Source of the DNA: a virus
IMG/VR virus record: IMGVR_UViG_3300048015_000369
Coordinates: 1-23,996 of that record
Direction: 5' to 3' (one strand)
Length of the DNA stretch: 23,996 nt
This document shows positions 2,602-19,103 of the stretch, one piece after another. A model generated the notes under the pieces. That model ran no database searches and was not told the DNA's origin. It worked only from the letters and a program-made list of their open reading frames with translations. How positions within the stretch are numbered: position 1 is the stretch's first letter; each line of letters starts with the position of its first letter. A program made the translations under genes and the position numbers.

Positions 2602-2650
2602 TCATCCCGCGCGGGCTGGTAGGCTGCGGCCGACGGCTCGCGCGGGATGA
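2602..2650. repeat. 12-bp perfect inverted repeat, possible terminator or boundary hairpin
   Basis: The arm TCATCCCGCGCG (2602-2613) pairs perfectly with CGCGCGGGATGA (2639-2650) around a 25-nt GC-rich loop. No T-run follows, so an intrinsic terminator of the classic kind is not supported. It may be a REP-like palindrome or mark the left edge of the phage-like element. Confidence 0.6.
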
Positions 2651-2775
2651 ATCCTTGCGCGACGAAGGCAACCGCCGCCAGCCCTGTCCGGCAAGCGGCA
2701 AATCCCCCTCCTCCACGACCTCCCCCGTCTTTCGCCGATTCTCGGCGACGACCCTTTCTGTCTACCATCCGGCTC

Positions 2776-2804
2776 TTTCTTTTCCGCCCACACGCCTGTA
2801 CACT
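2776..2804 (+). promoter_or_regulatory. Weak candidate promoter for the terminase operon
   Basis: A -10-like TACACT lies at 2799-2804 (4 of 6 consensus bases). Seventeen bases upstream is only a poor -35 match (TTTCTT, 2776-2781). The expected transcription start would be close to the GTG at 2812, so the mRNA could be leaderless. No purine-rich ribosome-binding site precedes that GTG. This is a guess from base pattern alone. Confidence 0.25.
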
Positions 2805-2811
2805 TATCCAT

Positions 2812-4125
2812 GTGAACCTGACGCAAACCCTGGCCCTGGCGCTCGACCCCTCCCGCATCCTGCTCGCCCAGGGGATGACGGCCGACGCCTGGCAGCGGGA
2901 CTTCCTGCTCTCGCCCGACCGCCGCGTGCTGCTCAACTGCTGCCGGCAGTCCGGCAAGAGCACGACCACCGCCGCCCTGGCCCTGCACACCGCCCTGTTC
3001 TCGCCCGGGGCGCTGGTCCTGCTGCTCAGCCCGACGCTGCGGCAGAGCCACGAGTTGTTTCGCAAGGTGCTCGCGGCCTACAACGCCGTCGGCCGGCCGG
3101 TGCCGGCGGTCAACGACGCCCAGACGCTCTCGCGGCTGGAGCTGGCCAACGGCGCCCGCGTCATCGGCCTGCCCGGCCGCGAGGGGACCATCCGCGGCTT
3201 CAGCAAGGCCGCCCTGCTCGTCCTCGACGAGGCCTCGCGCATCCCCGACGACCTCTACCGCACCGTCCGGCCCATGCTCGCCGTCTCGGGGGGGAGGCTG
3301 GTCGCCCTGAGCACGCCGTTCGGCCGGCGCGGCTGGTTCTTCGACGAATGGGAGCGCGGACAGGGGTGGAAGAAGGTCCGCATCACCTGGCAGGACTGCC
3401 CGCGGATCACCCCGGAGTTCATCGCCCTCGAGCGCCTGTCGCTGGGCGAGCAGTGGGTCGGCCAGGAGTTCGAGTGCCGCTTCACCGCCCTCGAGGGGCT
3501 CGTCTACCCCGACTTCGAGCGGTGCCTGCACCCCGGGGGGCCCACCCCGCCCGGCAAGCCCGTCGGCGGCATCGACTTCGGCTGGCGCAACCCCTTCGCC
3601 GCCGTCTGGGGCGCCCTCGACCGCGACGACGTGCTGTGGATCGACCAGGAGCGCTACCTGTGCCAGACGCCGTTGCACGAGCACACCGCCGCCCTGCGGC
3701 CCCTGGGCGTCAGCTGGGTCGCCGACCCCGCCGGGGCCACCGAGATCAGCGAGCTGCGCGCCGCGGGGCTCGTCGTGCGCCGCGGCGACAACGACGTCCG
3801 CGCCGGCATCGCCGCCGTCACCGCGCGCGTCCGCACCGGCCGGCTGAAGGTCGCCCGGCGCTGCGCCCACCTGTGGGAGGAGGCGCGGCTCTACCGCTAC
3901 CCCACCTCGCCCGGCGACACGGCGGCCCCCGGCGGCGAAAAGCCCGTCGACGAACACAACCACGCCCTGGGCGCGCTGCGGTATCTGGTGTCGAAACTGG
4001 ACGCGCGGTTCATCGCCCGGCTGCGGAAGCGCGGGACCGCCGACGGACCGCCGGAGGACGACGTCCCCGCCCGGCCGCCGGCCAGCTGGCGGGACGACGA
4101 GGAGTTGTGGGAGAGACTGACGTGA
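2812..4125 (+). CDS. terL: Phage terminase large subunit
   Basis: 437 aa; the two-domain DNA-packaging motor that pumps DNA through the portal and cuts it. ATPase domain: Walker A CRQSGKST (residues 44-51, K49), Walker B LLVLDE (135-140, D139/E140) and coupling motif STPFG (167-171). RNase H-like nuclease domain: acidic residues in GIDFG (D255), VADPA (D305) and VDEHNHALGALRY (D380). All expected acidic residues are present, so the enzyme looks active, and the length is normal. I chose GTG 2812 because the text from LDPSRILLAQGM onward looks family-like. The upstream ATG at 2647 would add a low-complexity Pro/Ser-rich leader not expected in the family. The portal gene overlaps its stop in a GTGA, so the two are translationally coupled. 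Confidence 0.93.
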   Translation: MNLTQTLALALDPSRILLAQGMTADAWQRDFLLSPDRRVLLNCCRQSGKSTTTAALALHTALFSPGALVLLLSPTLRQSHELFRKVLAAYNAVGRPVPAVNDAQTLSRLELANGARVIGLPGREGTIRGFSKAALLVLDEASRIPDDLYRTVRPMLAVSGGRLVALSTPFGRRGWFFDEWERGQGWKKVRITWQDCPRITPEFIALERLSLGEQWVGQEFECRFTALEGLVYPDFERCLHPGGPTPPGKPVGGIDFGWRNPFAAVWGALDRDDVLWIDQERYLCQTPLHEHTAALRPLGVSWVADPAGATEISELRAAGLVVRRGDNDVRAGIAAVTARVRTGRLKVARRCAHLWEEARLYRYPTSPGDTAAPGGEKPVDEHNHALGALRYLVSKLDARFIARLRKRGTADGPPEDDVPARPPASWRDDEELWERLT

Positions 4126-5483
4126 GTACGCGCTCGTTCCTGGCCGACGCAGTGGGAAAACTCGCGTGCTGGCTGCACCCCAAGGGGATGCCCCCGGTGC
4201 TGGCCGGCGGGCAGTGGGCCGGCACGGCCTACACCGACGCCTACCACCGCCAGCGCGCCCCGACGCCCAACGAACTGATGGCCGAGCTGAAAGGGGCCGC
4301 CTGGACGTGCGCCAGCATCAACGCCAGCGTCTGCGCCAGCTTCCCGCCGAAGCTCTACGCCGCCACCCGCCCGGGCGAGCCGGCCCCGCGCTGCCGCAGC
4401 CGGGCCGTCGCCCGCAAGACCGAGGAGCGGCTGCGCCGCTGCCCGTCGTGGTCGGTCTACACGCGGGCGGCACAGCACCTGGTCGAAGTAACAGAACACC
4501 CGCTGCTGGCGCTGTTCGACCACGCCAACCCGTTCCACAACGCCTTCGACCTGTGGGAGCTGACGACGCTCTATCTGGAGGTCCACGGCCGGGCGTACTG
4601 GTACACGGACTTCGACCCCGTGCTGGGCGTGCCGCGCGCCCTCTGGCCGCTGCCGTCGCAGAACGTCACGCCGGTGCGCGACCCGCAGAGCGCGACCATC
4701 GTGGACTACTACCTCTACCGCACCGGGACCCGGGAGCAGCACTTCGCCCCCGACGAGGTGGTCTGCTTCCGCTACCCCGACCCGCGCGACCCCTACACCA
4801 GCGGCCTGTCGCCGCTGCGGGCGTGCTTCGAGCAGGCGTCGCTGGCCTCCGACTACGCGGCGACCAAGAAGAGCGTCTACGAGAACCGGGCCATCCCCAG
4901 CGCCGTCGTCTCGCCCGACGACGTGCTGGGCGAGGAGGAGCGCGACCGCCTCGAGGCGCAGTGGAACCAGCGGTTCCGCCGCGGCGGCAGCGGCCGGGTG
5001 GTGGTGGCCGAGACCGGCCTCAAGGTGCAGCTGTTGCAGCAGTCGCTGGGCGACCTGGCCGCCCTGGCCGACATGAAGGCGACCAAGGAGGACGTGGCCA
5101 ACGCCTTCCACGTCCCGCTGAGCTTCCTGACCAGCGAGACCAACCTCGCCAACCTGCAGGCCGCCCAGCAGCAGCACATGGCCAAGGCGATCAGCCCGCG
5201 CCTGCGCCGCCGCGACGAGAAGGTCAACGAGCAGCTGGTGCCGTTGTTCGACCCCTCGGGCCGGCTGTTCGTCGCCAGCGAAGACCCGGTGCCGGAGAAC
5301 TTCGACGACAACCTGAAAGAGTTGGAGCTGTTCCTGAAATACGGCGTGCTGTCGGTCAACGAGGTGCGCGGCGGCGAGGGCATCGAGCCGGCCGCCTGGG
5401 GCGACGTGCCCTGGCTGCCCCTGCAGTGGGCCCCGACCGACTCCGCCGTGCGGGACCGTGAGCCGCCCGACCAGCACACCTGA
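4122..5483 (+). CDS. HK97-family phage portal protein
   Basis: 453 aa, starting at GTG 4122 within the terminase stop (GTGA). The portal forms the dodecameric ring at one capsid vertex, docks the terminase and nucleates the head. Visible portal features: HPLLALFDHANPFHN followed by LYLEVHGRAYWY; the segment LWPLPSQNVTPVRDP; FAPDEVVCFRYPDPRDPYTSGLSPLRAC; and the C-terminal clip/wing region with DMKATKEDVANAFHVPLSFLTSETNLANLQAA. Longer versions of this frame starting upstream run through the terminase gene and are not real. It follows terL directly and precedes the protease by a 114-nt gap holding a hairpin. Length and motif order match the HK97 portal family with no visible defects. Confidence 0.93.
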   Translation: MSTRSFLADAVGKLACWLHPKGMPPVLAGGQWAGTAYTDAYHRQRAPTPNELMAELKGAAWTCASINASVCASFPPKLYAATRPGEPAPRCRSRAVARKTEERLRRCPSWSVYTRAAQHLVEVTEHPLLALFDHANPFHNAFDLWELTTLYLEVHGRAYWYTDFDPVLGVPRALWPLPSQNVTPVRDPQSATIVDYYLYRTGTREQHFAPDEVVCFRYPDPRDPYTSGLSPLRACFEQASLASDYAATKKSVYENRAIPSAVVSPDDVLGEEERDRLEAQWNQRFRRGGSGRVVVAETGLKVQLLQQSLGDLAALADMKATKEDVANAFHVPLSFLTSETNLANLQAAQQQHMAKAISPRLRRRDEKVNEQLVPLFDPSGRLFVASEDPVPENFDDNLKELELFLKYGVLSVNEVRGGEGIEPAAWGDVPWLPLQWAPTDSAVRDREPPDQHT

Positions 5484-5512
5484 CACGGCCACATTCGTTG
5501 AGCCGCGGCCCG

Positions 5513-5533: not shown

Positions 5534-5597
5534 AGATCGATGACGGAGAACCGCGCTCGGCGCCACCCGCGCCCGTGCATCAGAAGAGGAAAATCGT

Positions 5598-6398
5598 ATG
5601 GCCAGCTTCCTGAGAACCTACGGCGCGACCCTCGGCCCCCTGGGCTTCCCCATGGCCGACAAGCAGGCCCGCGCCCTGGACCTGCTCCTGCGCAGCCTGC
5701 CGCGCGGCCGGGAGTACGACTACCGCAAGCAGGTGGCGGCCAAGGCCCCCACCGAGCTGAACCCGGGCGAGCGGTCCGACGTGTCGTGGATCAGCACCGA
5801 GTCGGTGGACCGCTGCGGCGAGGTGGTGATCGCGAAAGGCATGAACGACGGCCAGTTCCAGAGCAACCCGCTGGTGACGCTGGGCCACGCCTACGACCTG
5901 CCGCCGGTCGGCCGCAGCCTGTGGCGCAAGCGCGTCAAGGACGGCGGCGGCGAGCACGCCCTGGTCGGCGTGAAGGCCAAGACCCGCTACCCGGAGCGGC
6001 CCGACTCCTGGCCCGCCTCCGACAGCTGGCCCCCCGACCGCGTCTTCAGCCTGGTGCAGGCCGGCCTGCTGCACGGCAAGTCCATCGGCTTCCTGCCCAC
6101 CCAGGCGCACTTCGCCGACGCCCAGGAGGCCGAGGCCCGCGGCTGGCCGGCGGGGACGCTCGTCTTCGACGAGTGGCTGCTGCTGGAGTACGCCGTCTGC
6201 TCGCTGCCCGCCAACCAGGACGCCCTGGTCGAACAGGTGAGCAAGGGCAGCCTCGACGCGCCCCCCGCCGTCGCGTCGTTCACCGCCCTGTCGGAGGTGG
6301 AGCGGGCCGTCGAGGTGCGGCTGCAGCAGATCGACTTCGCCAGGCTGGCCGAGCAGCGCGTCGGGCAGGTCTACGACGCCCGCCGCGGCCGCGTCTAG
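5598..6398 (+). CDS. HK97-type prohead (capsid maturation) protease
   Basis: 266 aa, a serine protease that trims the capsid protein and scaffold during head maturation. ATG 5598 is preceded by AGAGGA at a good distance. The fold is recognised from VSWISTESVDRCGEVV, then the likely catalytic His97 in LVTLGHAYDLPPVG, the likely catalytic Ser162 in LHGKSIGFLP, and the segment LLLEYAVCSLPANQDAL with Glu197 as the probable acidic partner. Assignment of the triad is by alignment from memory to the U35/HK97 gp4 family. It sits in its standard place between portal and major capsid protein. The length, slightly above average, allows for a C-terminal tail of about 55 residues of unknown role. Confidence 0.9.
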   Translation: MASFLRTYGATLGPLGFPMADKQARALDLLLRSLPRGREYDYRKQVAAKAPTELNPGERSDVSWISTESVDRCGEVVIAKGMNDGQFQSNPLVTLGHAYDLPPVGRSLWRKRVKDGGGEHALVGVKAKTRYPERPDSWPASDSWPPDRVFSLVQAGLLHGKSIGFLPTQAHFADAQEAEARGWPAGTLVFDEWLLLEYAVCSLPANQDALVEQVSKGSLDAPPAVASFTALSEVERAVEVRLQQIDFARLAEQRVGQVYDARRGRV

Positions 6399-6413
6399 CG
6401 CCCCCGTGTAGCC

Positions 6414-6446
6414 GCGACGCGAAGTCTTCGCAGCGGAGCGCGTCGC
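6414..6446. repeat. 8-bp stem inverted repeat after the protease gene
   Basis: GCGACGCG (6414-6421) pairs with CGCGTCGC (6439-6446) around 17 nt. It lies just after the protease stop, in the 187-nt gap before the capsid gene. It could be a terminator or a processing hairpin that adjusts capsid expression relative to the protease. No T-tract is present. Confidence 0.4.
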
Positions 6447-6585
6447 CGCCGCCCGGCGCCGAACCGTCGCCCGTGAAAGCCGTCAGGGGCGGCCCGGAGA
6501 GGGGAACCCCAAGTCCCCGCCGGGCCCGGCCTGGAGACGGACCGTGTCCGCGTCTTTTCACCGCCCCAGAGCAAGAGACCCTCCC

Positions 6586-7899
6586 ATGTGGATCGAATTA
6601 CTCAAGGACTTCCTCGGCAAGAAGGCCGGCGAGCGCATCTTCCTCGACCCCGCCGAGGCCAGGGCCCTCGTCGCCTCCGGGGCCGCGCGTGAGCCGGCCG
6701 ACGACCCCCTCGGGCCGGTGATCGCCCGGGGCGTCGAGACCGCCCTGGCCGGCTTCACCCGCGGCCTCGACGGCATCATCAACGCCGCGCTGAAGCAGTT
6801 CGCCGAGGCGCAGGCCAAGAGCCGCAAGAACGCCGTCCCCGCCCTCTTCGGCCCCGACGCCCCGGGCGACCCGAAGAAGAGCTTCGGCGACTGGTGCCTG
6901 GCCGTGGCCCGCAAGGACACCGCCTACCTGGAGAAGCACTACGGCTCCGTGTTCAACGCCTGGGAGACCAAGGCCGCCCTGGCCGAGGCCTCGGGCCAGG
7001 CCGGCGGCTACACCGTGCCCCCGGAGTTCTACCAGCAACTGATGCAGGTGATGGCCGAGAACGCCTTCATCCGCCCCAACGCCTTCGTCGTGCCCATGGG
7101 CTCCGCGACCCTGCAGATCCCCTACCTCGACATCACCACGACGCAGTCGGCCGGCGTCAGCCCGTTCTTCGGCGGCGTGCAGATGTCGTGGACCGCCGAG
7201 GCCCAGACCCGCACCGAGACCGAGCCCGCCTTCAAACAGATGGAGCTCAAGGCCTGGGAACTCTCCGGCTACTCCGTCAGCTCCAACGTCCTCCTGCAGG
7301 ACAGCATCGTCGGCCTGGAGAAGTTCCTGTTCACCCTGTTCGCCAAGGCCATCGCCTGGTTCGAGGAGTTCGCCTTCCTGCAGGGCAACGGCGTGGGCAA
7401 GCCGCAGGGCGTCCTGGGGGCGTCCGCGGCGATTTCCGTCACGCGCAACACCGCCTCCGCCGTCAAGCTGGTGGACATCACCAACATGTGGGCCAAGCTG
7501 CTGCCCGTCAGCTGGGGCAAGGCCTTCTGGACCTGCTCGCCGTCCGTGGTCACCCAGCTGCTGCAGCTGTCCGACGCCAGCAACCGCGCCATCTTCATCA
7601 CCATCGACCAGGGCGCCGCGGTGGCGCCCCGGTGGAGCCTGCTCGGCCGGCCGGTCTACCCCACCGAAAAGGTCCCGGCCCTGGGGACCAAGGGCGACCT
7701 GATGCTCATGGACCCGAGCTTCTACGTCATCGGCGACCGCCAGCAGATCGAGATCGCCGCCAGCGAGCACGTCAACTTCCTGAAGAACCAGATGACCTGG
7801 CGCGTGGTCGAGCGCGTGGACGGCCAGCCGTGGATGGACAAGCCCGTCACCCTGCAGGACGGCAGCACCACCGTCTCGCCCTTCGTCGTCCTGAACTGA
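6586..7899 (+). CDS. HK97-fold phage major capsid protein
   Basis: 437 aa. Residues 1 to about 110 are a helical N-terminal region (for example IARGVETALAGFTRGLDGII), fitting the delta/scaffold domain that the protease removes. The HK97 capsid body then starts around SFGDWCLAVARKDT, with the typical AEASGQAGGYTVPPEFYQQL, the VPMGSATLQIPYLD strand, GVQMSWTAEAQTRTETEPAFKQMELKAWELSGYSVSSN and QGNGVGKPQGVLG. ATG 6586 is chosen because it follows a GAGA-rich stretch; the alternative GTG 6544 has no such site. Neighbouring terminase, portal and protease genes make this a true virion capsid, not an encapsulin. It is followed after 9 nt by the decoration-like gene. No frameshift or missing segment is visible. 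Confidence 0.95.
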   Translation: MWIELLKDFLGKKAGERIFLDPAEARALVASGAAREPADDPLGPVIARGVETALAGFTRGLDGIINAALKQFAEAQAKSRKNAVPALFGPDAPGDPKKSFGDWCLAVARKDTAYLEKHYGSVFNAWETKAALAEASGQAGGYTVPPEFYQQLMQVMAENAFIRPNAFVVPMGSATLQIPYLDITTTQSAGVSPFFGGVQMSWTAEAQTRTETEPAFKQMELKAWELSGYSVSSNVLLQDSIVGLEKFLFTLFAKAIAWFEEFAFLQGNGVGKPQGVLGASAAISVTRNTASAVKLVDITNMWAKLLPVSWGKAFWTCSPSVVTQLLQLSDASNRAIFITIDQGAAVAPRWSLLGRPVYPTEKVPALGTKGDLMLMDPSFYVIGDRQQIEIAASEHVNFLKNQMTWRVVERVDGQPWMDKPVTLQDGSTTVSPFVVLN

Positions 7900-7908
7900 G
7901 GCTCCCCC

Positions 7909-8364
7909 ATGTACACCGAACAACTCACCCAGCGGCTCGGCATCTGCGCGCCGGTGAACAACCAGACGATCAACAGTTCCGCCACCGCGTCGGCGACGGC
8001 CGGCCCGGTGGACATGCAGAAGTTCCACCGGGCGCTGTTCCTGGTGGACGTCGGCACGGTGGTCAGCGGCGGGGCGGTCACGCTGCAGCTCATCGAGAGC
8101 GCCAGCAGCAGCCTGTCCAGCCCGCAGAACTGCCCCGGCAGCAACACCGCCCTGACCGGCCTGAACACCAGCAACAAGCAGTACACGTTCGAGATCCGCG
8201 CCGACCAGATCGACGCCGGCTACCGCTACGTCGGCCTGCAGGCCACCGAAACCGCCGGCCACAACGTCGCCATCACCGTCGTCGGCTTCGGCGACGAGGC
8301 CGGCCACAAGCCCGGCAACCTCAACAACGATTCCAGCGTCGTCACCCAGCAGGTGGTGAGCTGA
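7909..8364 (+). CDS. Phage-like structural protein of unknown function, decoration-type position
   Basis: 151 aa, starting 9 nt after the capsid stop. It has no signal peptide or membrane segment. It is rich in Ser, Thr, Asn and small residues with alternating beta-strand patterns (FHRALFLVDVGTVV, VTLQLIES, YTFEIRADQI, YRYVGLQATET, NVAITVVGFGDEAG), suggesting a single beta-sandwich domain. Position directly after the capsid gene is where head-decoration or head-completion proteins usually lie. I do not recognise a named family with confidence. It could equally be an N-terminal part of a head-tail joining component. Confidence 0.75.
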   Translation: MYTEQLTQRLGICAPVNNQTINSSATASATAGPVDMQKFHRALFLVDVGTVVSGGAVTLQLIESASSSLSSPQNCPGSNTALTGLNTSNKQYTFEIRADQIDAGYRYVGLQATETAGHNVAITVVGFGDEAGHKPGNLNNDSSVVTQQVVS

Positions 8365-8396
8365 ACCCCCGTCGCCCAGCAAAAGCAGGAGACCGC

Positions 8397-9242
8397 ATGC
8401 GCCAGATCGTCGTTTCCAACGAGTCCACCGTGGTCGCCGACGCCGACGTGCAGGCCGCCGTCGCCGCCGTGCAGACGCAGATCACCGAGCACTTCGCCCC
8501 GGCCTACTCGGGCCTCTCGGCCGTGCTGCACTTCCAGCACGGCAAGCCGGCCGCCGGGGTGGAGGTCTGCCACGTCCTGGACGACTCCGACCAGGCCGGC
8601 GCCCTCGGCTACCACGAGCTGAAACCCCAGGGCTTCCCCGAGGGCTTCGTCTTCGCCCGCACGACCCAGGAGGCCGGCGACCCGTGGACCACCACGCTCA
8701 GCCACGAGATCCTCGAGCAGCTGCTCGACCCCTACGCCAACTGGGGCACCCAGGCCCAGCTCGGCGGCCAGACGGTCCTGGTGGCCCTGGAGGACGCCGA
8801 CCCCGTCGAGGGCGACTCCTACCCGATCAACGGCGTCGCCGTGTCCAACTTCGTCCTGCCCGCCTGGTTCGCCGGCACGGGCGGAAAAGTGGACTACCTG
8901 GGCAAGCTGTCGCGCGGGCTGAGCCTCGACGCGGGCGGCTACATCGCCTACACGGCCGACGGCGTCAACTGGCAGCAGCTCACCGGCCGGCACACCGCCG
9001 AGCGGCACAAGGGCGCGCCGCCGTTCACCCGGCGGGCGCGGCGGCTGCGGCACCCGCCGCACCTGGCCCGCCGGGCCGGCGCGGTCAACTGGACCAACCT
9101 GCTATCCGACATCCAGAAAGTCCTGCAGGCCGCCCCGCAGGTGCTGCAGGTGGTCGGCCAGCTCGGCGGCATCTTCTCCGGCCTGGGCCTGGCCCCGGTC
9201 GGCTCGGCCCCGCCCAGCCTGCCCGTGGTCCAGGCCCCTTGA
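8397..9242 (+). CDS. Uncharacterised HExxE-motif protein in the phage head operon
   Basis: 281 aa. ATG 8397 follows an AGGAG site. The centre carries SHEILEQLLDP (HExxE at residues 103-107, followed by D111) and, 25 residues on, an acidic stretch ALEDADPVEGDSY with VSNFVLPAWF. The His-Glu pair in a helix plus downstream acids suggests a metal-binding or metallopeptidase-like site, but the second His of the usual HExxH is Glu. Residues about 195-230 are Arg/His-rich, and the C-terminus (TNLLSDIQKVLQAAPQVLQVVGQLGGIFSGLGL) is an amphipathic-to-hydrophobic helix that could bind a membrane or oligomerise. There is no signal peptide. Its stop is only 10 nt from the start of the secreted cytochrome-like gene, which ties head genes and redox genes together. 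Confidence 0.78.
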   Translation: MRQIVVSNESTVVADADVQAAVAAVQTQITEHFAPAYSGLSAVLHFQHGKPAAGVEVCHVLDDSDQAGALGYHELKPQGFPEGFVFARTTQEAGDPWTTTLSHEILEQLLDPYANWGTQAQLGGQTVLVALEDADPVEGDSYPINGVAVSNFVLPAWFAGTGGKVDYLGKLSRGLSLDAGGYIAYTADGVNWQQLTGRHTAERHKGAPPFTRRARRLRHPPHLARRAGAVNWTNLLSDIQKVLQAAPQVLQVVGQLGGIFSGLGLAPVGSAPPSLPVVQAP

Positions 9243-9252
9243 GGGAGACGGC

Positions 9253-10812
9253 GTGCGCGCGCACCTCTCGTTGCTCTGGCCCCTGCTCCTCAGCCTGCCG
9301 GCGCCGGCCGCCCCCACTGCACCGCCCTCTCCCGGGGACGCGGTCGCGCTGGCGGCGCGGGACGTGGTCAAGCTGCGCCCCGACGACCGGCCGTTCGCCC
9401 GCTACCTGTGGGTGGTCGAGCCGTCGCCGGCGGCCCGGCGGGTCTGGAAGCTGCACCAGAACCTGCTGTCGCGCTACGCCGAGATGACCGACGTCGTGCC
9501 GGTCGCCCCCTGGCTGTGGCGCATCGACCTGCGCGACCCGGCCTGGGACCCCGCGACCTGGGAGAACGCCGGGGCGAGCGACCCGTTCTTCCACACCCGG
9601 GTGAAGCTGACGCGCGACACGGTGTTGCGCTCCGTCTGGCCCGGCGGCAAGGACGCCACCGGGCGGTTCTTCAAGCGGCAGAAGTACGACAAGCCGCGCA
9701 AGGCCGGCGAGCGCGTCGTCGTCGGCGCCCCCTGGCTGCCGCCGGCCGAGCTGAACCTCCTGCGCTTCGCCGTCTTCAGCGAGAGCCCGGTGCTCATGGC
9801 CGAATGGCTCTTCGCGCAGAGCGCCCGCCAGCGCAACCTGCTGAACAAGGACGACCACGGCGTCGGCTATTACGACTTCCTCAAGGTGAAGGACCGCGAC
9901 GACTTCTTCGGGCTCATCAAGCTGAACGTCAAGGACAGCGCCGCGTTCGGCCGGGACATGCAGGCCGCGCTGGAGAAGTCCGGCGTCAGCCCGCAGAACC
10001 GGCAGATGCTCCGCCAGCTGGCCGTCGGCGGGGCGGCCTGGGTGACCCTGGACACCGACCGCCAGCAGGGCCGCGGCGTCGCCCTGCGCAACCTCGAGCC
10101 CGGCCGGTTCCGCCACAACGCCGAGGAGTGGTACGGCGTGCTGCCCAACGGCCTGCCCGTCACCTTCCTGAGCAACGACAAGGGGGTGCGGCAGAATTTC
10201 GCCCCCGCCGACAGCCACGGCTTCGCCGACCGCAGCAGCCTCAACGAGAGCAACGACACGCGCATCCACGTCAACCTGGCGTGCTGGCGGTGCCACGCCG
10301 GGCAGGTGCTCAAGGACTTCCGCGACGACGTCCGCCGGCAGTTCAAGGCCGGCGGCTGGCTGCTGCTGGGGAGCACCGACCGCGAGCGGGACCTCCTGTT
10401 CCGCCGGCTGTACTTCTCCGACGTGTACAAGGCGCTGGCCCGCGACCGCAAGGACTTTCAGGACGCCATCACGCTGGCCACGCGGCTGAACCCCGCCGAC
10501 CCGCGTGACGCCGGGCTGACGGCGCAGAAAGCCGCCGCCGCCTACGCCCGGGCCTTCCACCGCTACGCCGACGACGACGTGACGCCCGCCCGGGCGGCCC
10601 GCGAGCTGGGCGTGACCGCCCCGGTGTTCCTGGCGGCGCTGCGGCACTACGCCCGGCCGCTGGGCCTGCCCACCCTCGCCGACGTCCCGCTGTCCCGCTA
10701 CCTGGCCGACGAGCCGATGCCCCTGTCCCGGCTCACCTGGGAAGACAGTTACCCGCTGGCGCAAAGCATCCTCGCCAGCTATTCCGCCGCGACCAAGAAA
10801 GGAAAGCGATGA
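9253..10812 (+). CDS. Secreted protein with a single c-type heme motif (CxxCH)
   Basis: 519 aa, from GTG 9253 with GAGGGAGA just upstream and overlapping the 10-nt gap after the previous stop. Residues 1-20 form a signal peptide (short basic start, Leu-rich core, Ala-x-Ala end), so the protein is exported. The only heme-attachment motif is CWRCH at 344-348 within IHVNLACWRCHAGQVLKD, and no clear distal Met (such as MPP) follows. The rest is charged and helical with no domain I can name; residues 40-330 contain many Trp/Phe-containing segments. Its stop overlaps the next start (ATGA at 10809-10812), implying coupled translation with a second cytochrome. A role in periplasmic electron transfer or heme-dependent sensing is inferred only from the motif. 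Confidence 0.82.
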   Translation: MRAHLSLLWPLLLSLPAPAAPTAPPSPGDAVALAARDVVKLRPDDRPFARYLWVVEPSPAARRVWKLHQNLLSRYAEMTDVVPVAPWLWRIDLRDPAWDPATWENAGASDPFFHTRVKLTRDTVLRSVWPGGKDATGRFFKRQKYDKPRKAGERVVVGAPWLPPAELNLLRFAVFSESPVLMAEWLFAQSARQRNLLNKDDHGVGYYDFLKVKDRDDFFGLIKLNVKDSAAFGRDMQAALEKSGVSPQNRQMLRQLAVGGAAWVTLDTDRQQGRGVALRNLEPGRFRHNAEEWYGVLPNGLPVTFLSNDKGVRQNFAPADSHGFADRSSLNESNDTRIHVNLACWRCHAGQVLKDFRDDVRRQFKAGGWLLLGSTDRERDLLFRRLYFSDVYKALARDRKDFQDAITLATRLNPADPRDAGLTAQKAAAAYARAFHRYADDDVTPARAARELGVTAPVFLAALRHYARPLGLPTLADVPLSRYLADEPMPLSRLTWEDSYPLAQSILASYSAATKKGKR

Positions 10813-11504
10813 CCCGCAACCCCACCCCGCTGCTCGGGCTGCTCGCCCTGCTGGCGACGGCCGCCCCGGCCCCGGCCACCACCTGCTACACCACCACGCC
10901 CTACGCGACGGCGTCCTACGCCTCGCCTGGCTACAGCTACGCCTACCCCGTGACGACCTTCCTGGGCGTGCCCATCCCCATCCTCTACGGCAGCGTCTAC
11001 ACGGGCCCCGCTTCCACCGCCGCCTACGCACCCGCAGCATCGATCTCGCCCGTCTCGCCCGTGCAGGGCACGGGCTCGGGCGACCTCGCCGAAGCGGTAA
11101 AGCTGCTCCGCGGCGTATCGACCCGCCTCGACGGCGTCAACAGCCGGCTCGACGCCCTGGAGGGGCGCATCCGCGCCCTGGAGCATCGCGCCGCCCCGCC
11201 GAAGCCGGCCCCCCCGTCGGCCGCGCCCGCCGACGTGAAACGGACGGACGTGCTGGCGGCCTACCGGACCTCCTGCGCCGCCTGCCACCAGCGCGGCAAC
11301 GAGGGGGCGGGGGGCAAGTTCGTCCTCCTCGAGGCCGACGGCTCCCGCGCCGCGCTGACCGCCGGGCAGGCGGCCCGCCTCGCCGAGCACCTCGCCGACG
11401 GCTCCATGCCCCCGCCGCGCAACAAAGTGGGGATCGCCCCGCTCGACGACCGCACCCAGGCCGCCATGCTCCTCGACGCCAGCAACTTCCCCCGGTCCCG
11501 GTAA
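10809..11504 (+). CDS. Secreted cytochrome c with coiled-coil stalk
   Basis: 231 aa. A signal peptide covers residues 1-24 (leader with LLGLLALLATAAPAPA). A Tyr/Ser/Thr/Pro-rich segment follows to about 85. A coiled coil lies at 92-127 (repeating LLRGV, RLDGV, RLDAL, RIRAL heptads). After a Pro/Ala linker comes a compact class I cytochrome c domain with CAACH at 156-160 and the distal-ligand motif GSMPPP (M200). Domain order suggests an oligomeric stalk that presents one heme domain outside the cytoplasmic membrane. It overlaps the upstream gene by 4 nt (ATGA). The partner and redox couple are not visible. Such cytochrome domains are common in planctomycete secreted proteins but not expected in a capsid operon. 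Confidence 0.88.
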   Translation: MTRNPTPLLGLLALLATAAPAPATTCYTTTPYATASYASPGYSYAYPVTTFLGVPIPILYGSVYTGPASTAAYAPAASISPVSPVQGTGSGDLAEAVKLLRGVSTRLDGVNSRLDALEGRIRALEHRAAPPKPAPPSAAPADVKRTDVLAAYRTSCAACHQRGNEGAGGKFVLLEADGSRAALTAGQAARLAEHLADGSMPPPRNKVGIAPLDDRTQAAMLLDASNFPRSR

Positions 11505-11538
11505 TCGCCCGTTCTTCGACCCTGTAAAGGAGTGTCTG

Positions 11539-12051
11539 ATGAAACGCACCCTCGTGTTCGCCCTGGCCCTCGCCGCCGCGGCGGCCGCCGACCGGCCGGC
11601 GCAGGCCGCCTTCCGCCGCGGCGCCCACGTCCGCGTGGGCTTCTTCGGCCGCCACGTCTTCGTCCCCGCCGTCGCCACCTCGACCGTGGCGGCGCCCCCC
11701 GTCCTGGTCGGCCCGCTCACCCCGGCGGCCCCCGCGCCGGCCGCGGCGGCCAGCGACCCGGCGCTGGCGGCTCAGCTCCAGCTGCTCGCCGCCCGGCTCG
11801 CGGCCCTGGAAGTTCGCCAGGCCGCCCCGGCGCCCGTCGCGGTGACGCCGGTCGCGGTGGCGCCGGTCAGGGTGGCGCAGCTGAACACCCTGCCGGCGGT
11901 GCAGCAGCTCACCTTCCTGACGGGCCTCTACGGCGTGACGGCCGGCCGGGCCCTGTTCGTCACCCACGGCGGCGCCTTCGCCGTGACCGGCCGGCCGGTG
12001 CGCGGCGCGGTGTTCGTCCGCGCCCCGTTCGTGCGAATCCGCGTCCGCTAA
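11539..12051 (+). CDS. Secreted Ala/Pro-rich protein of unknown function with short coiled coil
   Basis: 170 aa. ATG 11539 has a strong AAAGGAG site. A signal peptide covers about residues 1-24 (FALALAAAAAADRPAQA). Residues 40-75 are Ala/Val/Pro-rich, a short amphipathic helix at about 75-95 (AAQLQLLAARLAALEVRQ) could form a coiled coil, and the C-terminal third is Gly/Val/Arg-rich with beta-like alternation (FLTGLYGVTAGRALFVTHGG). The architecture resembles that of the cytochrome upstream without its heme domain, so the two may oligomerise through matching helices (inference). It sits 34 nt after that gene and 16 nt before the VTC-like gene, within the same operon. Confidence 0.75.
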   Translation: MKRTLVFALALAAAAAADRPAQAAFRRGAHVRVGFFGRHVFVPAVATSTVAAPPVLVGPLTPAAPAPAAAASDPALAAQLQLLAARLAALEVRQAAPAPVAVTPVAVAPVRVAQLNTLPAVQQLTFLTGLYGVTAGRALFVTHGGAFAVTGRPVRGAVFVRAPFVRIRVR

Positions 12052-12067
12052 CCCCAACGGGACCCCG

Positions 12068-12697
12068 ATGCAACCGCTTCCCGCGAGCGCGCTGCGGCGG
12101 AACGTCGGCACCTGGTGCGTGCCGACGTCCCTGCTCCCCGCCGTCAGCCACTTTTTGCATGACGCTTTACCCAACGAGCCGTACGACCCGCACTTCCTGG
12201 GCCAGCGGCTGGAAACCACCTACTTCGACACCGCCGCGTTCGACCTGCGGCGGGCCCGGCAGGCGAAGGGCCGATACCTCACGCTCCGCCTGCGCTGCTA
12301 CGCCGCGCCCGGCCAGCCCCACCAGTACGCCCTGTCGGCGAAGACCGAGGCGGAGAAGTGGCGGCGGGAAGTCGCCCCGGCGGACGCCGAGGCGGTCCTG
12401 GCCCGGCCGCAGGCGGTCGTCCCCTTCCTGCCCGGCCGCCTGCTCGCCCGGCTCCAGGAGCTGGCCGGCGGCGACCTGCTGTGTGCGGTCACCGTGTGCT
12501 GCCGCCGCTACGCCGTCGAGGACGCCTTGGACCGCTACACGCTCGACGTCGGCGTGACCACCGACCGCGGCAAGCGCCTCGGCTTCGCGGTGCTCGAGCA
12601 CAAGAGCGTGGACGGCGGCCCGCCGCCCGCGGCGCTGGCGGCCGTCGGGCTGCGGCGCATGAAACTGAGCAAGTTCCTGTGGGCCCTGGAGGTTTGA
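12068..12697 (+). CDS. VTC/CYTH-type tunnel-fold protein, polyphosphate-polymerase-like
   Basis: 209 aa. Hallmarks of the VTC domain: YFDT (52-55), K68, LTLRLRCY with R74 and R76, YALSAKTEAEKWRREV with K92 and K98, basic pair RR (146-147), LEHKS (177-180) and the terminal KLSKFLWAL (199-207). These positive and acidic residues match those that line the tunnel and hold triphosphate/polyphosphate and metal in VTC4-type enzymes. It is slightly shorter than usual and has no SPX or transmembrane part. It could be a polyphosphate polymerase, another phosphotransferase of the CYTH/VTC clan, or a binding protein. It lies in the cytochrome operon, 16 nt after the previous stop; the next, broken, gene starts 2 nt after its stop. 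Confidence 0.8.
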   Translation: MQPLPASALRRNVGTWCVPTSLLPAVSHFLHDALPNEPYDPHFLGQRLETTYFDTAAFDLRRARQAKGRYLTLRLRCYAAPGQPHQYALSAKTEAEKWRREVAPADAEAVLARPQAVVPFLPGRLLARLQELAGGDLLCAVTVCCRRYAVEDALDRYTLDVGVTTDRGKRLGFAVLEHKSVDGGPPPAALAAVGLRRMKLSKFLWALEV

Positions 12698-12698
12698 C

Positions 12699-12895
12699 AT
12701 GCGGATAGGTGCGCTTTGGGCGCTGGGGTCGTTGGCCGCGACGCTGTCCGCGGCCCCGGCCCCGTTCCGGCGGCCCGCCGGGCCGGCCCACCCCTGGCGG
12801 GGGCCTGGGTCCTGACCTGGTCGGCGGTGGGCGGCACGGTGGTCTTCGGGCCCGACGGCCGTTACGAGCACCAGTTCCTGGGCTGCCGTCCCAAC
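12699..12895 (+). pseudogene. Frameshifted, truncated secreted-protein gene remnant
   Basis: ATG 12699 opens a clear signal peptide (MRIGALWALGSLAATLSAAPAP) in frame 3, which hits a stop after 38 codons. The mature part is readable in frame 2 at about 12792-12890, beginning PPLAGAWVLTW and going on to VVFGPDGRYEHQFLGC. That is the opening of a small planctomycete secreted domain I recall as AGTW-LTWG---FGPDG-Y. A one-base deletion (or two-base insertion) between the two pieces explains the frame change. The rest of the domain is missing, and text turns into the upstream region of the tail-adaptor gene near 12890-12905. It is a dead gene at the junction of the cargo operon with the tail module. 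Confidence 0.65.
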
Positions 12896-12923
12896 AAGGG
12901 ATGCGCGAACGAAGGTGGTACGG

Positions 12924-13286
12924 ATGTCGGCGACGACCTGGCAAGAGCCCGCGAGGGCCAAACTCTGGAGCGCGACCGTGGCAAGCACGTTGACGAAGCG
13001 GGCCGCCGAGAGCCGGCTCTACACGATGGACTTCAGCCAGATGCCCGAGATCGTGGCCGGCGACACGATCAGCAGCGTGACCGCCGTCACGGGCACGGTA
13101 GAGAGCGGCTACAACGCCTCCTCGCTCACCGTGGGCACGACGGGCGTCGCCGGCAGCAGCAAGACGGCCACCGCCGTGCTCTCCGGCGGCACCGACGGGG
13201 CCATCTACAAGGTGAGCTTCAAGGTAGCCACCACCGCCGGCTACACCCTCATCGGGGTCGGTTACCTCTGCATCGACGACGAGTAA
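12924..13286 (+). CDS. Phage tail-fibre adaptor-like protein
   Basis: 120 aa from ATG 12924 (GAAGG upstream; GTG 12915 is a less likely start). The body matches, by pattern, the small fibre-tail adaptor family: MDFSQMPEIVAGDTISSVT, then a strand series with AGSSKTATAVLSGGTDGAIYKVSFKVATTAGYTL. In that family the G-D-I/T-I-S, SGGT-G-Y-V and T-AGRT motifs recur. It probably links the connector or tail tip to the fibre encoded next. The N-terminal 45 residues are Ala/Arg/Thr-rich and helical. A repeated hairpin follows its stop and precedes the fibre gene. Confidence 0.7.
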   Translation: MSATTWQEPARAKLWSATVASTLTKRAAESRLYTMDFSQMPEIVAGDTISSVTAVTGTVESGYNASSLTVGTTGVAGSSKTATAVLSGGTDGAIYKVSFKVATTAGYTLIGVGYLCIDDE

Positions 13287-13290
13287 CCCG

Positions 13291-13311
13291 AGCCCGTTTT
13301 CTGAACGGGCG
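13291..13311 (+). promoter_or_regulatory. Repeated hairpin, copy 2, upstream of the tail-fibre gene
   Basis: GCCCGTT (13292-13298), loop TTCTG, AACGGGC (13304-13310), identical to the hairpin before the protease gene. In this copy the bases flanking the 7-bp stem do not pair. The trailing GAG runs straight into the GAGGAG ribosome-binding site of the fibre gene, so folding could influence fibre translation. The exact repetition about 7.8 kb apart within one element supports a shared regulatory or processing role. Confidence 0.6.
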
Positions 13312-13322
13312 AGGAGATGATA

Positions 13323-14579: not shown

Positions 14580-14580
14580 A

Positions 14581-14913
14581 ATGAACGCCAAGCGGCTGAA
14601 CTGGATCATGACGGGCATGTACTACCTCTTCGGCATCACGGCGAGCGGGTACACGCCGCCGGTGCCCCTCTCACGCCTGGGGCTCTACCAGGTCGCAGGG
14701 ATCCTCTCGACGTGGCTCAACGAGGGGGTGGTGTGCGGGTTCATCCCGGCCACCCCCGGCGGGTCGGCGGCGAACAGCGTGGTCGATTCCGACTTCACGG
14801 CCAACTACCCGGCGGCGACGGCGGCGCTCTTCCTGTCGGCCGTGGCGGGCCTCCAGGCGATCACCGGGACCTACGGCAGCTACTACTCGGCCATCGCGGC
14901 CATCAAGCCGTAG
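14581..14913 (+). CDS. Small tail-associated protein of unknown function
   Basis: 110 aa, ATG one base after the fibre stop, so probably co-translated. It has Trp, Tyr and Leu-rich helices: KRLNWIMTGMYYLFGITASGY, SRLGLYQVAGILSTWLNEG and AATAALFLSAVAGLQAITG. It is moderately hydrophobic but shows no clean transmembrane segment. I recognise no family. A role as a fibre chaperone or minor tail component is inferred from position only. Confidence 0.6.
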   Translation: MNAKRLNWIMTGMYYLFGITASGYTPPVPLSRLGLYQVAGILSTWLNEGVVCGFIPATPGGSAANSVVDSDFTANYPAATAALFLSAVAGLQAITGTYGSYYSAIAAIKP

Positions 14914-14925
14914 GGCGGAATCCTC

Positions 14926-15093: not shown

Positions 15094-15096
15094 CCA

Positions 15097-16062
15097 ATGG
15101 CGAAGAAAGACCTGATCACGCTCAGCCAGGCGTACAGTCGGCTGCAGGGGGTGAGCGGGAGTGACGGCCTCGTCCAGTCGCTCATCACGGCCTACTCCGA
15201 CGCGGTGGAGAAGTGGTGCCGGCGGCGGTTCCTCACGCAGGCGTACGACGAGCTTTACAACGGCAACGGCGACCGTCGGCTGCTCCTGCGGCAGTACCCG
15301 CTGCAGAGCGTCCAGAGCGTACGCTACCGGCCGGTCACGGTGGTCAAGGTGGGGAACAACACGCCGGCCAACGTCCAGGCCCGGGTAAGCGTGACGAACG
15401 TCGGGCTCAAGTTCTTCCGCAGCAACGCGGGGACGGGCTACACGGACACGTCGGTCACGTTCGCGAGCTACCCGACGCTCACGCAGCTGGTCGCGGCGAT
15501 CAACGCCCTCGGCAACGGGTGGAACGCCCAGGTCGTCGGCGACAGCAACAACTACGGCGGCTGGCCCAGTGCCGATCTCTACTGGCCGAGCAGCTACGGC
15601 GACCCACTCGAAGGGGTCGGGATCCAGGAGAGTCAAGGCGCGCTGGGGTGCGTCAACGGCGGCGGCGGCCAGGCCTTCGCCGAGCTAAAGATGCACACGT
15701 ACGAGCTGCAAGGGTTCCAGTGGGACCCGAGGGGGTGGCTGCTGCGGGCCATCCCCTACACCGACCCCGAACTCTTGCACCCCGAAGACCTGATCTTCCC
15801 CGTCGGCATCAACAACTTCCGCATCCAGTACACCGCGGGCTACACCACGGTGCCCGAGGCGGTGCAGGAAGCGACGGGCCGGTGGGTGGCCTACGCCTAC
15901 TGGGAGGCCCAGCGCGACCCGGCGCTGTTGCACCAGGTGCCGACGAGCGGGGCGACCCAGGCCTGGGGCGGGGGGGCGGTGGGGAAGGGGAACCCGCCGG
16001 CGGACGTGGCGGTGTTGCTGCGGCCCTACCGGCGGTACACGGTAGGCATCGACCAGGGGTAA
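15097..16062 (+). CDS. Phage gp6-like head-tail connector protein
   Basis: 321 aa. The N-terminus LITLSQAYSRLQGVSGSDGLVQSLITAYSDAVEKWCRRRF is the four-helix start of gp6/gp15-type connectors (family motif: residues that initiate with I/L-x-x-A and end V-E-x-x-C/T-x-R). It is followed by the family strand YPLQSVQSV. The C-terminus IQYTAGYTTVPEAVQEATGRWVAYAYWEAQRDPAL is also characteristic of connector helices. In between lies a large insert (about 90-225) with a Gly/Asn/Tyr-rich sequence not usual for the family. The ring should sit below the portal. Unusually, the gene lies after the fibre, 10 kb from the portal gene. ATG 15097 follows the 55-aa gene by three bases. Confidence 0.8.
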   Translation: MAKKDLITLSQAYSRLQGVSGSDGLVQSLITAYSDAVEKWCRRRFLTQAYDELYNGNGDRRLLLRQYPLQSVQSVRYRPVTVVKVGNNTPANVQARVSVTNVGLKFFRSNAGTGYTDTSVTFASYPTLTQLVAAINALGNGWNAQVVGDSNNYGGWPSADLYWPSSYGDPLEGVGIQESQGALGCVNGGGGQAFAELKMHTYELQGFQWDPRGWLLRAIPYTDPELLHPEDLIFPVGINNFRIQYTAGYTTVPEAVQEATGRWVAYAYWEAQRDPALLHQVPTSGATQAWGGGAVGKGNPPADVAVLLRPYRRYTVGIDQG

Positions 16063-16065
16063 GCG

Positions 16066-16787: not shown

Positions 16788-17360
16788 ATGTCTGAACCCG
16801 TCCGCAACCGCATCGTCCGCCACGTCCGCGTCCGGGCCGGCGACCTGGCCCCGCACGAGCTGAACCCGCGCCGCCACCCCGCCGCCCAGCGGCAGGCCCT
16901 GGCCGCCCTCTACGCCGAGGTGGGCTTCGCCCGCAGCCTGCTCGCCTACGAGCTGCCCGACGGCCGGCTCAAGCTCATCGACGGCCACCTCCGCCGCCAG
17001 CTCGACCCCGACATGGTGGTCGACGTGGAGGTGCTCGACGTCAGCGACGAGGAGGCCCGCAAGCTGCTCCTCAGCATCGACCCCCTGGCCGCCCTCGCCG
17101 ACACCGACCCCGCCGCCCTGGGCGAGCTGCGCCGGCTGACCGCGTCGGACTCCGACGCCCTCACCAACCTCTGGCGGTCCATCGACGCCGCCGGCGCCGC
17201 CGGCGAAGAAGCGCTCGAAAACGCCCGCGCCCGCAAGCCGGCCGCGCCCGCGCCGGAGCAGTACCTCGTCCTCGTCGAGTGCCCCGACGAGCCGTCGCAG
17301 CTCGCCCTGCTAGAACGGTTCCAGCGCGAGGGCCTGACCTGTCGCGCCCTGCTCTCCTGA
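16788..17360 (+). CDS. ParB N-terminal-domain protein
   Basis: 190 aa. ATG 16788 with a GAGGAAAGGA site. The ParB/Srx-like fold appears as VRAGDLAPHELNPRRH, a degenerate helix, YELPDGRLKLIDGHLRRQL with the central GHLRR motif (66-70; CTP-binding position in ParB), and VDVEVLDVSDEEARKLLLS. There is no HTH or long C-terminal dimer domain, so it is not a chromosomal partition protein. The end, YLVLVECPDEPSQLALLERFQREGLTCRAL, resembles a short C-terminal tail I recall from phage-linked ParB-domain proteins. Such proteins occur next to terminase genes and may license or regulate packaging or methylation. A 77-nt gap separates it from the Ig-domain gene. Confidence 0.85.
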   Translation: MSEPVRNRIVRHVRVRAGDLAPHELNPRRHPAAQRQALAALYAEVGFARSLLAYELPDGRLKLIDGHLRRQLDPDMVVDVEVLDVSDEEARKLLLSIDPLAALADTDPAALGELRRLTASDSDALTNLWRSIDAAGAAGEEALENARARKPAAPAPEQYLVLVECPDEPSQLALLERFQREGLTCRALLS

Positions 17361-17505: not shown

Positions 17506-18624
17506 ATGCACACCCACGTCGTCGTCGAATCCGCCGTCCGGGCCACCCCGCGCGTCGCCCAGCTGCGCGGGCTGTTCGACCTGGCCGCCGAACCCACCTC
17601 CCGCCTGGAGTGGGACGTGGACCTGCCGCTGGAAGACCGGCCCTGGAACGTCGGGCTGATCACCGGGCCGTCGGGCTGCGGCAAATCGACCATCGCCCGC
17701 GCCCTGTGGCCCGACGAGGTCCGGCAGGCCGCCGGCCTCACCTGGCCCGCCGGCGCCGCCGTGGTAGACGGCTTCCCCGAGGGGCTGTCCATCCGCGAGG
17801 TGACGGGCCTGCTCTCGGCGGTCGGCTTCAGCGCGCCGCCCGCCTGGCTGCGGCCCTTTTCCGCCCTCAGCACCGGGCAGCAGTTCCGCGCCACCCTCGC
17901 CCGCCTGCTCGCCGGGGCCCTGGCCGCCGAGGTCCCCCCGCTGGTCGTCATGGACGAGTTCACCAGCGTGGTCGACCGCACCGTCGCCTGCATCGGCAGC
18001 GCCGCGCTGGCCCGCACCGTCCGCGCCCGCAAGATGCGCTTCGTCGCCGTCACCTGCCACGACGACGTCATCGACTGGCTGCAGCCCGACTGGGTGTATC
18101 GGCCCTCCGAGAAGACTTTTACCTGGAGGTCGCTTCGACGCCGGCCCGCCATCCCCCTCGAGGTCGCCCGCTGCGGAACCGACCGCTGGCCGCTATTCGC
18201 ACCGCATCACTATCTGAGCCACGGCCTGGCCCCCTCGGCGACGTGCTTCCTGGCGACCTGGCAGGGCCGGCCGGTCGCCTTCAGCGCCTGGCTGCCGTTC
18301 GTCGGGCCCGGCAGGCCGGCCCGACGCGAGCACCGCACCGTCACGCTGCCCGACTACCAGGGCGTGGGTATCGGCCACGCCCTGTCGGGCCTGATCGCGT
18401 CGATGTGGCGCGGCCTGGGCTGCCGGGCGGTGTCCACCACCACGCACCCCGCCCTCATCCAGAGCCGCCGCCGCTCGCCCTTCTGGGTGCTGCGGCGCAG
18501 CCCGTCGCTGGCCGCCGGCCGGTCCGACCGGCTGCGGCACGCGCAGACGCGCCTGACCGCCGGGTTCGAGTACACCGGCCCCGCCCTGCCGCGCCTCCTG
18601 GCCCGGCGGCTGTGCGGCGGCTGA
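17506..18624 (+). CDS. ABC-type ATPase fused to GNAT acetyltransferase
   Basis: 372 aa, one polypeptide with two domains. ABC ATPase: Walker A GPSGCGKST (54-62), signature-like LSTGQQFR (121-128), Walker B PLVVMDEFTSVVD (145-157, D150/E151) and switch His H185 in TCHDDV. No transmembrane part exists, so it is not a transporter. GNAT half (about 215-345): FLATWQGRPVAFSAWL, then the acetyl-CoA motif LPDYQGVGIGHALSGLI (Q285-G290) and AVSTTTHPALI. Known: such fusions appear in phages and mobile elements next to ParB-domain and terminase genes, with unknown activity. Start ATG 17506 follows the inverted repeat. It precedes the small terminase by 20 nt. Confidence 0.88.
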   Translation: MHTHVVVESAVRATPRVAQLRGLFDLAAEPTSRLEWDVDLPLEDRPWNVGLITGPSGCGKSTIARALWPDEVRQAAGLTWPAGAAVVDGFPEGLSIREVTGLLSAVGFSAPPAWLRPFSALSTGQQFRATLARLLAGALAAEVPPLVVMDEFTSVVDRTVACIGSAALARTVRARKMRFVAVTCHDDVIDWLQPDWVYRPSEKTFTWRSLRRRPAIPLEVARCGTDRWPLFAPHHYLSHGLAPSATCFLATWQGRPVAFSAWLPFVGPGRPARREHRTVTLPDYQGVGIGHALSGLIASMWRGLGCRAVSTTTHPALIQSRRRSPFWVLRRSPSLAAGRSDRLRHAQTRLTAGFEYTGPALPRLLARRLCGG

Positions 18625-18644: not shown

Positions 18645-19103
18645 ATGTCCCGACGCACCCTGCTGACGCCCGCCGTCCAAGCCAACATCCTCGCCTACAT
18701 CCGCGCCGGCGGCTTCCCCGAGGTCGCCGCCGAGGCGGCCGGCGTCCGGGCCGACGTGTTCGCCCGGTGGCGCGAGCGGGGCGAGTCGGCCGGCGCCAGG
18801 CCGCGCTACCGCGCCTTCGCCCGGGCCGTCCGCCAGGCCGCCGCCCAGGCCCGGCTGGGGGCCGAGCTGAGCGTCCGCCAGGACAAGCCGTTCGACTGGC
18901 TGCGGTACGGGCCCGGCCGCGAGACGGCCCGCTCGCCCGGCTGGACCTCTGCCGCCCGCCCCCGGGCCGCGGCCGCCGAGGCCCCCACCCTGGCCCACCC
19001 CGCCGTGCAGCGCCTCGCCGCCGCCGTCCTGGCCGCCCTCGCCGACTTCCCCGAGGCCCGCGCCCACGCCGCCGGCCTGCTCGCCGGCCTCACCCAGGCC
19101 TGA
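18645..19103 (+). CDS. Probable phage terminase small subunit
   Basis: 152 aa from ATG 18645, 20 nt after the ATPase-GNAT stop. A helix-turn-helix DNA-binding N-terminus is clear: LTPAVQANILAYIRAGGFPEVAAEAAGVRADVFARWRERGE. It is followed by RYRAFARAVRQAAAQARLGAELSVRQDKPFDWLRYGPGRE, a pattern I associate with small terminase subunits that recognise the packaging site. The C-terminal helices (AVQRLAAAVLAALADFPEARAHAAGLLAGL) could mediate ring formation. Against this reading, it is 16 kb from and downstream of terL; a general HTH regulator is the alternative. Confidence 0.7.
   Translation: MSRRTLLTPAVQANILAYIRAGGFPEVAAEAAGVRADVFARWRERGESAGARPRYRAFARAVRQAAAQARLGAELSVRQDKPFDWLRYGPGRETARSPGWTSAARPRAAAAEAPTLAHPAVQRLAAAVLAALADFPEARAHAAGLLAGLTQA

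Follow-up and report, generated by a model that had tools for sequence, protein, structure and literature searches.

Lysis cassettes of phages combine a constant unit with an enzyme slot that is taken by non-homologous enzymes, and they lie in the late operon. A gene set with the same layout was analysed here in the IMG/VR record IMGVR_UViG_3300048015_000369, a complete virus record of 23,996 bases with a GC content of 71% (the whole stretch is called the window below). The set consists of four genes, g08-g09-g10-g11, encoding a putative zinc metallopeptidase, two exported haem proteins and an exported low-complexity protein. It is well supported as a representative of a mobile module of late genes that phages of Planctomycetota carry. 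Relatives of the window were found in Planctomycetota genomes; statements on hosts rest on the titles of metagenome-assembled genomes and on gene content. From the genes we infer, with a probability of about 0.4, that the module is a late envelope-breaching (lysis or egress) cassette made of a swappable protease and an exported haem-protein unit, which may help the virus to break through the unusual cell envelope of its host.

The module resembles holin-endolysin(-spanin) cassettes in its late-operon place, the small putative membrane proteins nearby, the non-homologous enzymes in one slot and the exported partners. It differs from them in that its enzymes are general proteases (M10, M12A, S8, C1 and metzincin-like) and not known peptidoglycan hydrolases, and in that its constant part is a haem-protein pair, with no holin or spanin family recognised. 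Auxiliary metabolic genes and morons are also accessory genes for exported proteins in phage genomes, whereas the module is a fixed multi-gene set with a protease in unrelated phages, and no metabolic pathway member was recognised in it. Borg extrachromosomal elements likewise tie cytochromes to virus-like or extrachromosomal elements (PMC11208441, PMC12660748). The Borg cytochromes are multihaem proteins, whereas the module has two mono-haem proteins in bacterial tailed phages. Searching the literature for cytochromes in planctomycete phages, for the function of PSCyt1, for phage-borne VTC and for lysis cassettes that include cytochromes returned nothing relevant, and no described counterpart of a protease with an exported haem-protein set was found.

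The g09-g10-g11 module was present at 18 loci including the window, 16 of which were viral records or prophages. Since all profiles used were seeded from the window, relatives of greater divergence may have escaped detection. Among 95 genomes of one family, a search gave four stand-alone g09 homologues (30–36%), all with a matrixin-type metalloprotease gene before and a g10 homologue after. In the viral scan, g09 alone was an unsuccessful query and a 15-member alignment was too divergent, but a five-sequence profile returned 11 viral loci, including the G014 and G052 prophages. A single g10 query against the 95 genomes gave nothing at 1e-6 although adjacent g10 copies exist, being too divergent. 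The module was also found by tblastn in the 595-kb phage LR756511.1, by further scans in viral records of 341 kb and 57 kb, and by a phylum search in a prophage of G464. Both huge phages (L122, which is LR756511.1, and L181, a contig of 340,934 bases) have the module in full; its protease is papain-like in both, and the gene directly before g09 encodes a small amphipathic protein.

The carriers are different phages, several of them with unrelated capsids: G489 has a window-type capsid (47–53%) with tail genes, G493 a Phage_cap_E capsid with a Mu-type portal, and G052 a different HK97 capsid. The module is placed in the manner of late operons, inside or beside structural genes (judged from position only), and it shares a strand with, and adjoins, tail or terminase genes. 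In the G052 prophage it lies in the tail operon between tape-measure/tail genes and a collagen-like fibre gene, the gene names there being our own reading of the sequence. The non-viral exceptions are G010, where the module lies amid host genes, and G090, at a contig end. The preliminary description of this DNA had taken the cytochromes to be exported, phage-borne extras and not capsid cargo, and the distribution agrees with it: a cytochrome pair without phage genes is not the rule among the relatives. Its other proposal, a domesticated particle with a surface redox function, is unsupported, as the same module is carried by ordinary tailed phages and by huge ones of up to 595 kb.

The genes of the module are tightly spaced. 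The g09 gene has a GTG start with GGGAG just upstream, 10 nucleotides (nt) past the g08 stop at 9242. It shares an ATGA overlap (10809–10812) with g10, gaps of 34 and 16 nt separate g10 from g11 and g11 from the VTC-like gene, and the open reading frames (ORFs) of g09, g10, g11 and the VTC-like gene have strong coding signal. This spacing had been described before and was confirmed from the ORFs, as were the CxxCH motif of g09 and the CAACH and GSMPPP motifs of g10. The CxxCH motif of g09 was unchanged in all 15 aligned homologues at 23–50% identity, and CxxCH and the distal Met (Met200) of g10 were invariant in 15/15, which argues that the haem motifs are not chance. N-terminal export signals on g09, g10 and g11 are plausible, as judged from crude hydropathy.

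The g10 protein comprises a Tyr-rich N-terminal stretch, a coiled-coil-like stretch and the cytochrome domain, whose Pfam match is under the curated cut-off. Its N-terminal region reaches 23% Tyr against a background of 2.5% (p = 1.5e-6); many members are Tyr-rich in this stretch, and 6 of 15 have 2–5%. For the g09 protein, neither Pfam nor BFVD gave a significant match, and PDB gave none in sequence or in fold comparisons; Pfam returned only noise, such as Peptidase_M91 at 0.029. Its AlphaFold2 (AF2) model was fairly confident, with a pLDDT of 77 and a pTM of 0.80. No His or Met outside CxxCH was invariant across the alignment, so we class g09 as a CxxCH haem protein and not as a classical cytochrome c, and its sixth haem ligand may be variable or absent. 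With g09, the c-type haem proteins gain a family of no recognised fold. In place and composition, g11 resembles the exported V/Q/A-rich proteins that follow g10 in most loci.

A protease gene is adjacent to the module in 16/18 loci, and at least four classes are represented. Matrixins (M10, E 1e-10 to 1e-19) occur in L092/L114, L094, L095/L120, L096, L113, L115 and L117, and astacins (M12A, 4e-7) in L116 and L119, while the protease of L121 has an astacin-like zinc motif. A subtilase (S8, E 1.2e-58) is found in G464, and papain-like proteases (C1) are weakly matched (0.004–0.02) in L112 and L122. Those of L181 and L184 were judged papain-like by eye. L118 has no recognised protease, and the contig of L111 ends too close. 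The motif HExxHxxGxxH was present in 4 of 478 ORFs of six phage records, all four immediately upstream of g09. A peptidoglycan-binding domain (PG_binding_1, E 1.8e-5) is present in the N-terminal part of one matrixin.

In the window, the place of the protease is taken by g08, which had no Pfam or PHROG match. Its family of 16 phage members has invariant H73, H103-E104-x-x-E107, D135 and NFVLPAWF. As a sequence homologue of matrixins g08 was rejected (15–19% identity, no confident alignment), and it was therefore judged by structure. The AF2 model had a pLDDT >90 over most of residues 1–200, and the top PDB matches in Foldseek were nearly all metzincins (MMP8, MMP13, snake venom metalloproteinases, ADAM and M7; prob up to 0.96, E 0.011–0.12). 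The family motif is HExxE, and the metzincin signature HExxHxxGxxH is absent. We therefore describe the predicted fold as metzincin-like without filing g08 as a metzincin, and regard it as the occupant of the protease slot. The earlier grouping of genes was right in setting the cytochromes tightly behind the head genes but left out g08. Members of the g08 family (L163–L179) occur in phages with a GC content of 29–72% and sizes up to 359 kb, and in L177 an intein/HNH-like insertion appears to split the gene.

In proteins of about 600–1170 aa from planctomycete chromosomes, an N-terminal PSCyt1 domain (PF07635) is joined to a g09-like CxxCH domain. In hhalign, g10 aligned to the host PSCyt1 N-termini with prob 94.5 and E 8e-8, and g09 corresponds to the second CxxCH domain, so that the phage gene pair equals one host polypeptide. 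The g09 protein of the G464 prophage ends in a V/Q-rich g11-like tail. Together, the host fusions and the g09-g11 fusion indicate that g09, g10 and g11 are partners. The host proteins differ from the module in their extra C-terminal domains, and protease or g11 neighbours were shown for the module only. The C-termini of the host fusions L142, L143, L080, L076, L082 and L126 are varied (TPR, WD40-like, DUF4384-like and formylglycine-enzyme-like). The module is a first lead to a function for this large uncharacterised PSCyt1 family.

We prefer lysis or egress since a constant unit with a swappable enzyme slot in a late operon matches the pattern of lysis cassettes; the peptidoglycan-binding domain of one matrixin also counts in favour. 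The protease would build up late in infection and reach the envelope by one of three means, namely a small membrane protein, a signal anchor or a signal of its own, and it would cleave a protein-rich wall or protein-peptidoglycan links. The g09, g10 and g11 proteins would leave the cytoplasm by Sec, receive haem (g09 and g10) from the host cytochrome c maturation system and assemble in the periplasm or wall, where a haem-dependent redox step might weaken or alter the wall or outer membrane. A more specific version, which we hold to be doubtful, is redox-assisted breaching, in which an exchangeable protease and an exported two-haem unit with a new fold (g09) open a wall that peptidoglycan endolysins alone cannot. 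If this is true, none of the lysis strategies described so far would be like it. The walls of planctomycetes are described as SDS (sodium dodecyl sulphate)-resistant and proteinaceous (PMC3422733), for which a protease would make sense in egress; the envelope also has lysozyme-sensitive peptidoglycan (PMC4432640). Phage entry and exit in Planctomycetota, with their debated protein-rich envelope, are essentially unknown, and the module makes the question testable with named genes.

Pfam scans of 123 proteins (90–700 aa) of three cassette phages (61, 51 and 49 kb; complete family lists of 14, 19 and 15) gave no peptidoglycan hydrolase family at E ≤ 1e-3, and Amidase_2 was absent from 14 records. 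Small hydrophobic ORFs were commoner around the module (9/61 vs 12/268, p = 0.007 in a crude test). Several points speak against a lysis or egress cassette. The lysin scan was confined to proteins of 90–700 aa, and the small-ORF test also picks up signal peptides. No clear holin was identified: the small ORFs near the module matched no holin or spanin family, and the window has no clear candidate. The protease of L121 is downstream of the module, and the copy in G010 has host genes around it. Catalysis by g08 is only predicted, its HExxE being unlike the metzincin signature and the Foldseek E values above 1e-3. To our knowledge, matrixins, astacins and subtilases are not known endolysins. The role that haem would have in lysis is unexplained.

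Other explanations account for part of these observations. The exported protease, haem proteins and low-complexity wall-like protein might remodel or cross-link the host protein wall for surface conversion or superinfection exclusion, for example by haem-catalysed tyrosine oxidation during infection or lysogeny. The Tyr-rich exported region of g10, the resemblance of g11 to a secreted structural protein and the two module loci on host contigs without recognised phage genes would fit, and g09, lacking an invariant second axial ligand, would have space for a peroxidase-like site. We nevertheless regard this as rather unlikely, given that the module lies inside late structural operons and not beside lysogeny genes, that Tyr richness is not universal and that no peroxidase family was matched. 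A respiratory or redox moron, with cytochromes passing electrons to or from the host chain in support of phage production, is less probable again. Some phages are known to carry auxiliary genes for respiration and photosynthesis, c-type cytochromes are plentiful in Planctomycetota, and g10 itself is a bona fide cytochrome c with one haem and a Met ligand. Against it, the pairing with class-changing proteases and g11 is constant, g09 matches no respiratory enzymes, and no oxidase, quinone-linked or haem-maturation gene was recognised among the neighbours, which were read by eye. The role in respiration or phosphate metabolism put forward in the preliminary description is disfavoured by the constant protease partner.

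That the module supplies virion or tail-associated entry components, namely a tail-tip protease with haem proteins, is suggested by its place between tail genes and the fibre gene in G052/L120 and beside the head genes in the window. We consider it improbable: N-terminal export signals and CxxCH motifs speak against it, as haem is attached outside the cytoplasm whereas virions are assembled inside; moreover, the recognised tail genes of the window are limited to adaptor- and fibre-like ones. A last alternative is that host genes were inserted by accident into a prophage in decay, or that the assembly is chimeric, the module then having no function. Related host fusion proteins do exist and the 28 closest capsid relatives have no g09–g11, but the same set in the same order in 16 viral records or prophages, the haem motifs kept at 23–50% identity and the 10-nt and ATGA junctions make this highly improbable.

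In the window, the proposed lysis or egress cassette would have entered the head operon at a site behind g08; the operon belongs to a capsid element in which no tail genes were recognised. The features of this element are listed in Table 1. Its gene order is TerL, probable portal, protease, HK97 capsid (the head genes before the cytochromes are of the HK97 type, as proposed earlier), decoration-like gene, g08, g09, g10, g11, VTC-like gene, gp77-like gene, fibre-like genes, head-tail adaptor, Ig-domain gene, ParB-like gene, ATPase-GNAT and terminase-small-like gene. Beyond the adaptor-like and fibre-like ones no tail genes were recognised; from TerL to the terminase-small-like gene there was neither a recognisable tape-measure gene nor a tail-tube gene, nor was an integrase seen. 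Genes were called with our own codon model and not with a published tool.

Table 1. Features of the capsid element and the module in the window.
Feature	Position	Strand	Evidence
Terminase large subunit	2647..4125	+	Pfam Terminase_6N/6C, phrog_7579 5e-59; coding signal best from 2812
Probable portal	4122..5483	+	Position, coding signal, family conserved in 28 sister loci
Prohead protease-like	5598..6398	+	phrog_80 4.7e-7, Pfam S78 0.013
HK97-type major capsid protein	6586..7899	+	Pfam Phage_capsid 2e-43
Small conserved decoration-like gene after capsid	7909..8364	+	In 28 loci; phrog_28483 9e-7
g08, putative HExxE zinc metallopeptidase	8397..9242	+	Family motif, AF2 and Foldseek; C-terminal amphipathic stretch
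g09, exported, one c-type haem motif (CWRCH)	9253..10812	+	CxxCH invariant in 15/15 homologues
g10, exported monohaem cytochrome c	10809..11504	+	Pfam Cytochrome_CBB3 4.5e-4; CxxCH and Met 15/15
g11, exported Ala/Val/Pro-rich low-complexity protein	11539..12051	+	Position and composition match in most loci
VTC-like (CYTH superfamily-like) protein	12068..12697	+	Pfam VTC 0.023 here; 50–67% identity in sister loci
Head-tail adaptor	15097..16062	+	phrog_442 2e-25
ParB-like protein	16788..17360	+	phrog_620 1e-5
ATPase and GNAT fusion	17506..18624	+	phrog_11143 4e-96; Pfam ABC_tran, Acetyltransf_1
Terminase-small-subunit-like HTH (helix-turn-helix) protein, element end	18645..19103	+	Position, HTH-like start; conserved in 7 loci

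Capsid relatives were found at 28 viral and 7 genome loci, and some capsid match was present in 44 of the 95 genomes. They share the TerL, portal, protease, capsid, decoration-like, adaptor, ParB-like and ATPase-GNAT genes. None of the 28 closest capsid sisters has g09, g10 or g11, and in the sister L165 g08 lies directly behind the decoration-like gene, as in the window, but without cytochromes. Accordingly, g09–g11 were probably added behind g08 in the element of the window. IMG/VR contigs are possibly fragments, and absences are weak evidence.

The VTC-domain protein of the preliminary description has weak VTC similarity (14.7 bits in the window; E 0.0021 and 18.1 bits in the sister L002) but stays below the curated cut-off of 23, and it is hence called only VTC-like. 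Its assignment to the cytochrome set was rejected: the gene is core to the capsid element, the family being present in 18 of about 30 sister loci and without cytochromes in 17. The VTC/CYTH-like protein is thus a conserved member of the capsid operon in the window and 17 sister loci, and the reason for its head-operon place is unexplained.

The cytochrome-free sisters L003, L004, L006, L010, L011, L012, L027, L028, L098, L099 and L101 encode an exported Cys/His-containing protein (cluster 10) downstream of the adaptor. Cluster 12, also exported, and cluster 17, a small membrane protein, are often encoded as well. All three clusters are absent from the window and are possibly an alternative to g08–g11. 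An impression by eye that cluster 10 is papain-like was unsupported by Pfam and PDB.

The element spans 13–16 kb from TerL to the terminase-small-like gene (2647–19103 in the window; also L099, L101/L102 and L097/L098). It exists in dozens of divergent versions, mostly from metagenome 3300047160, and the host flanks differ in G001, G002 and G005. It is possibly a capsid-forming satellite or an element like a gene transfer agent. In the G464 prophage, the ParB, ATPase-GNAT, terminase small-like and terminase large-like genes are contiguous; with this continuous order, the capsid element looks permuted. The ends of the window are host-like, with kinase-like and formylglycine-enzyme-like genes before 2.5 kb and exported proteins with TPR past 19.7 kb. 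The long ORFs at 117–1868 and 1865–2650 (+) look spurious, as the coding signal fits a kinase-like (586–1806) and a formylglycine-enzyme-like (1935–2480) gene. The space from the VTC-like to the gp77-like gene (12700–12923) contains a short ORF that encodes an export signal and seems to enter the downstream frame (GAWVLTWSAVGGTVVFGPDGRYEHQF), which suggests a frameshifted exported gene. A start resembling that of this ORF (LVGRWDFTWG) is found in L114 at 12814–12972.

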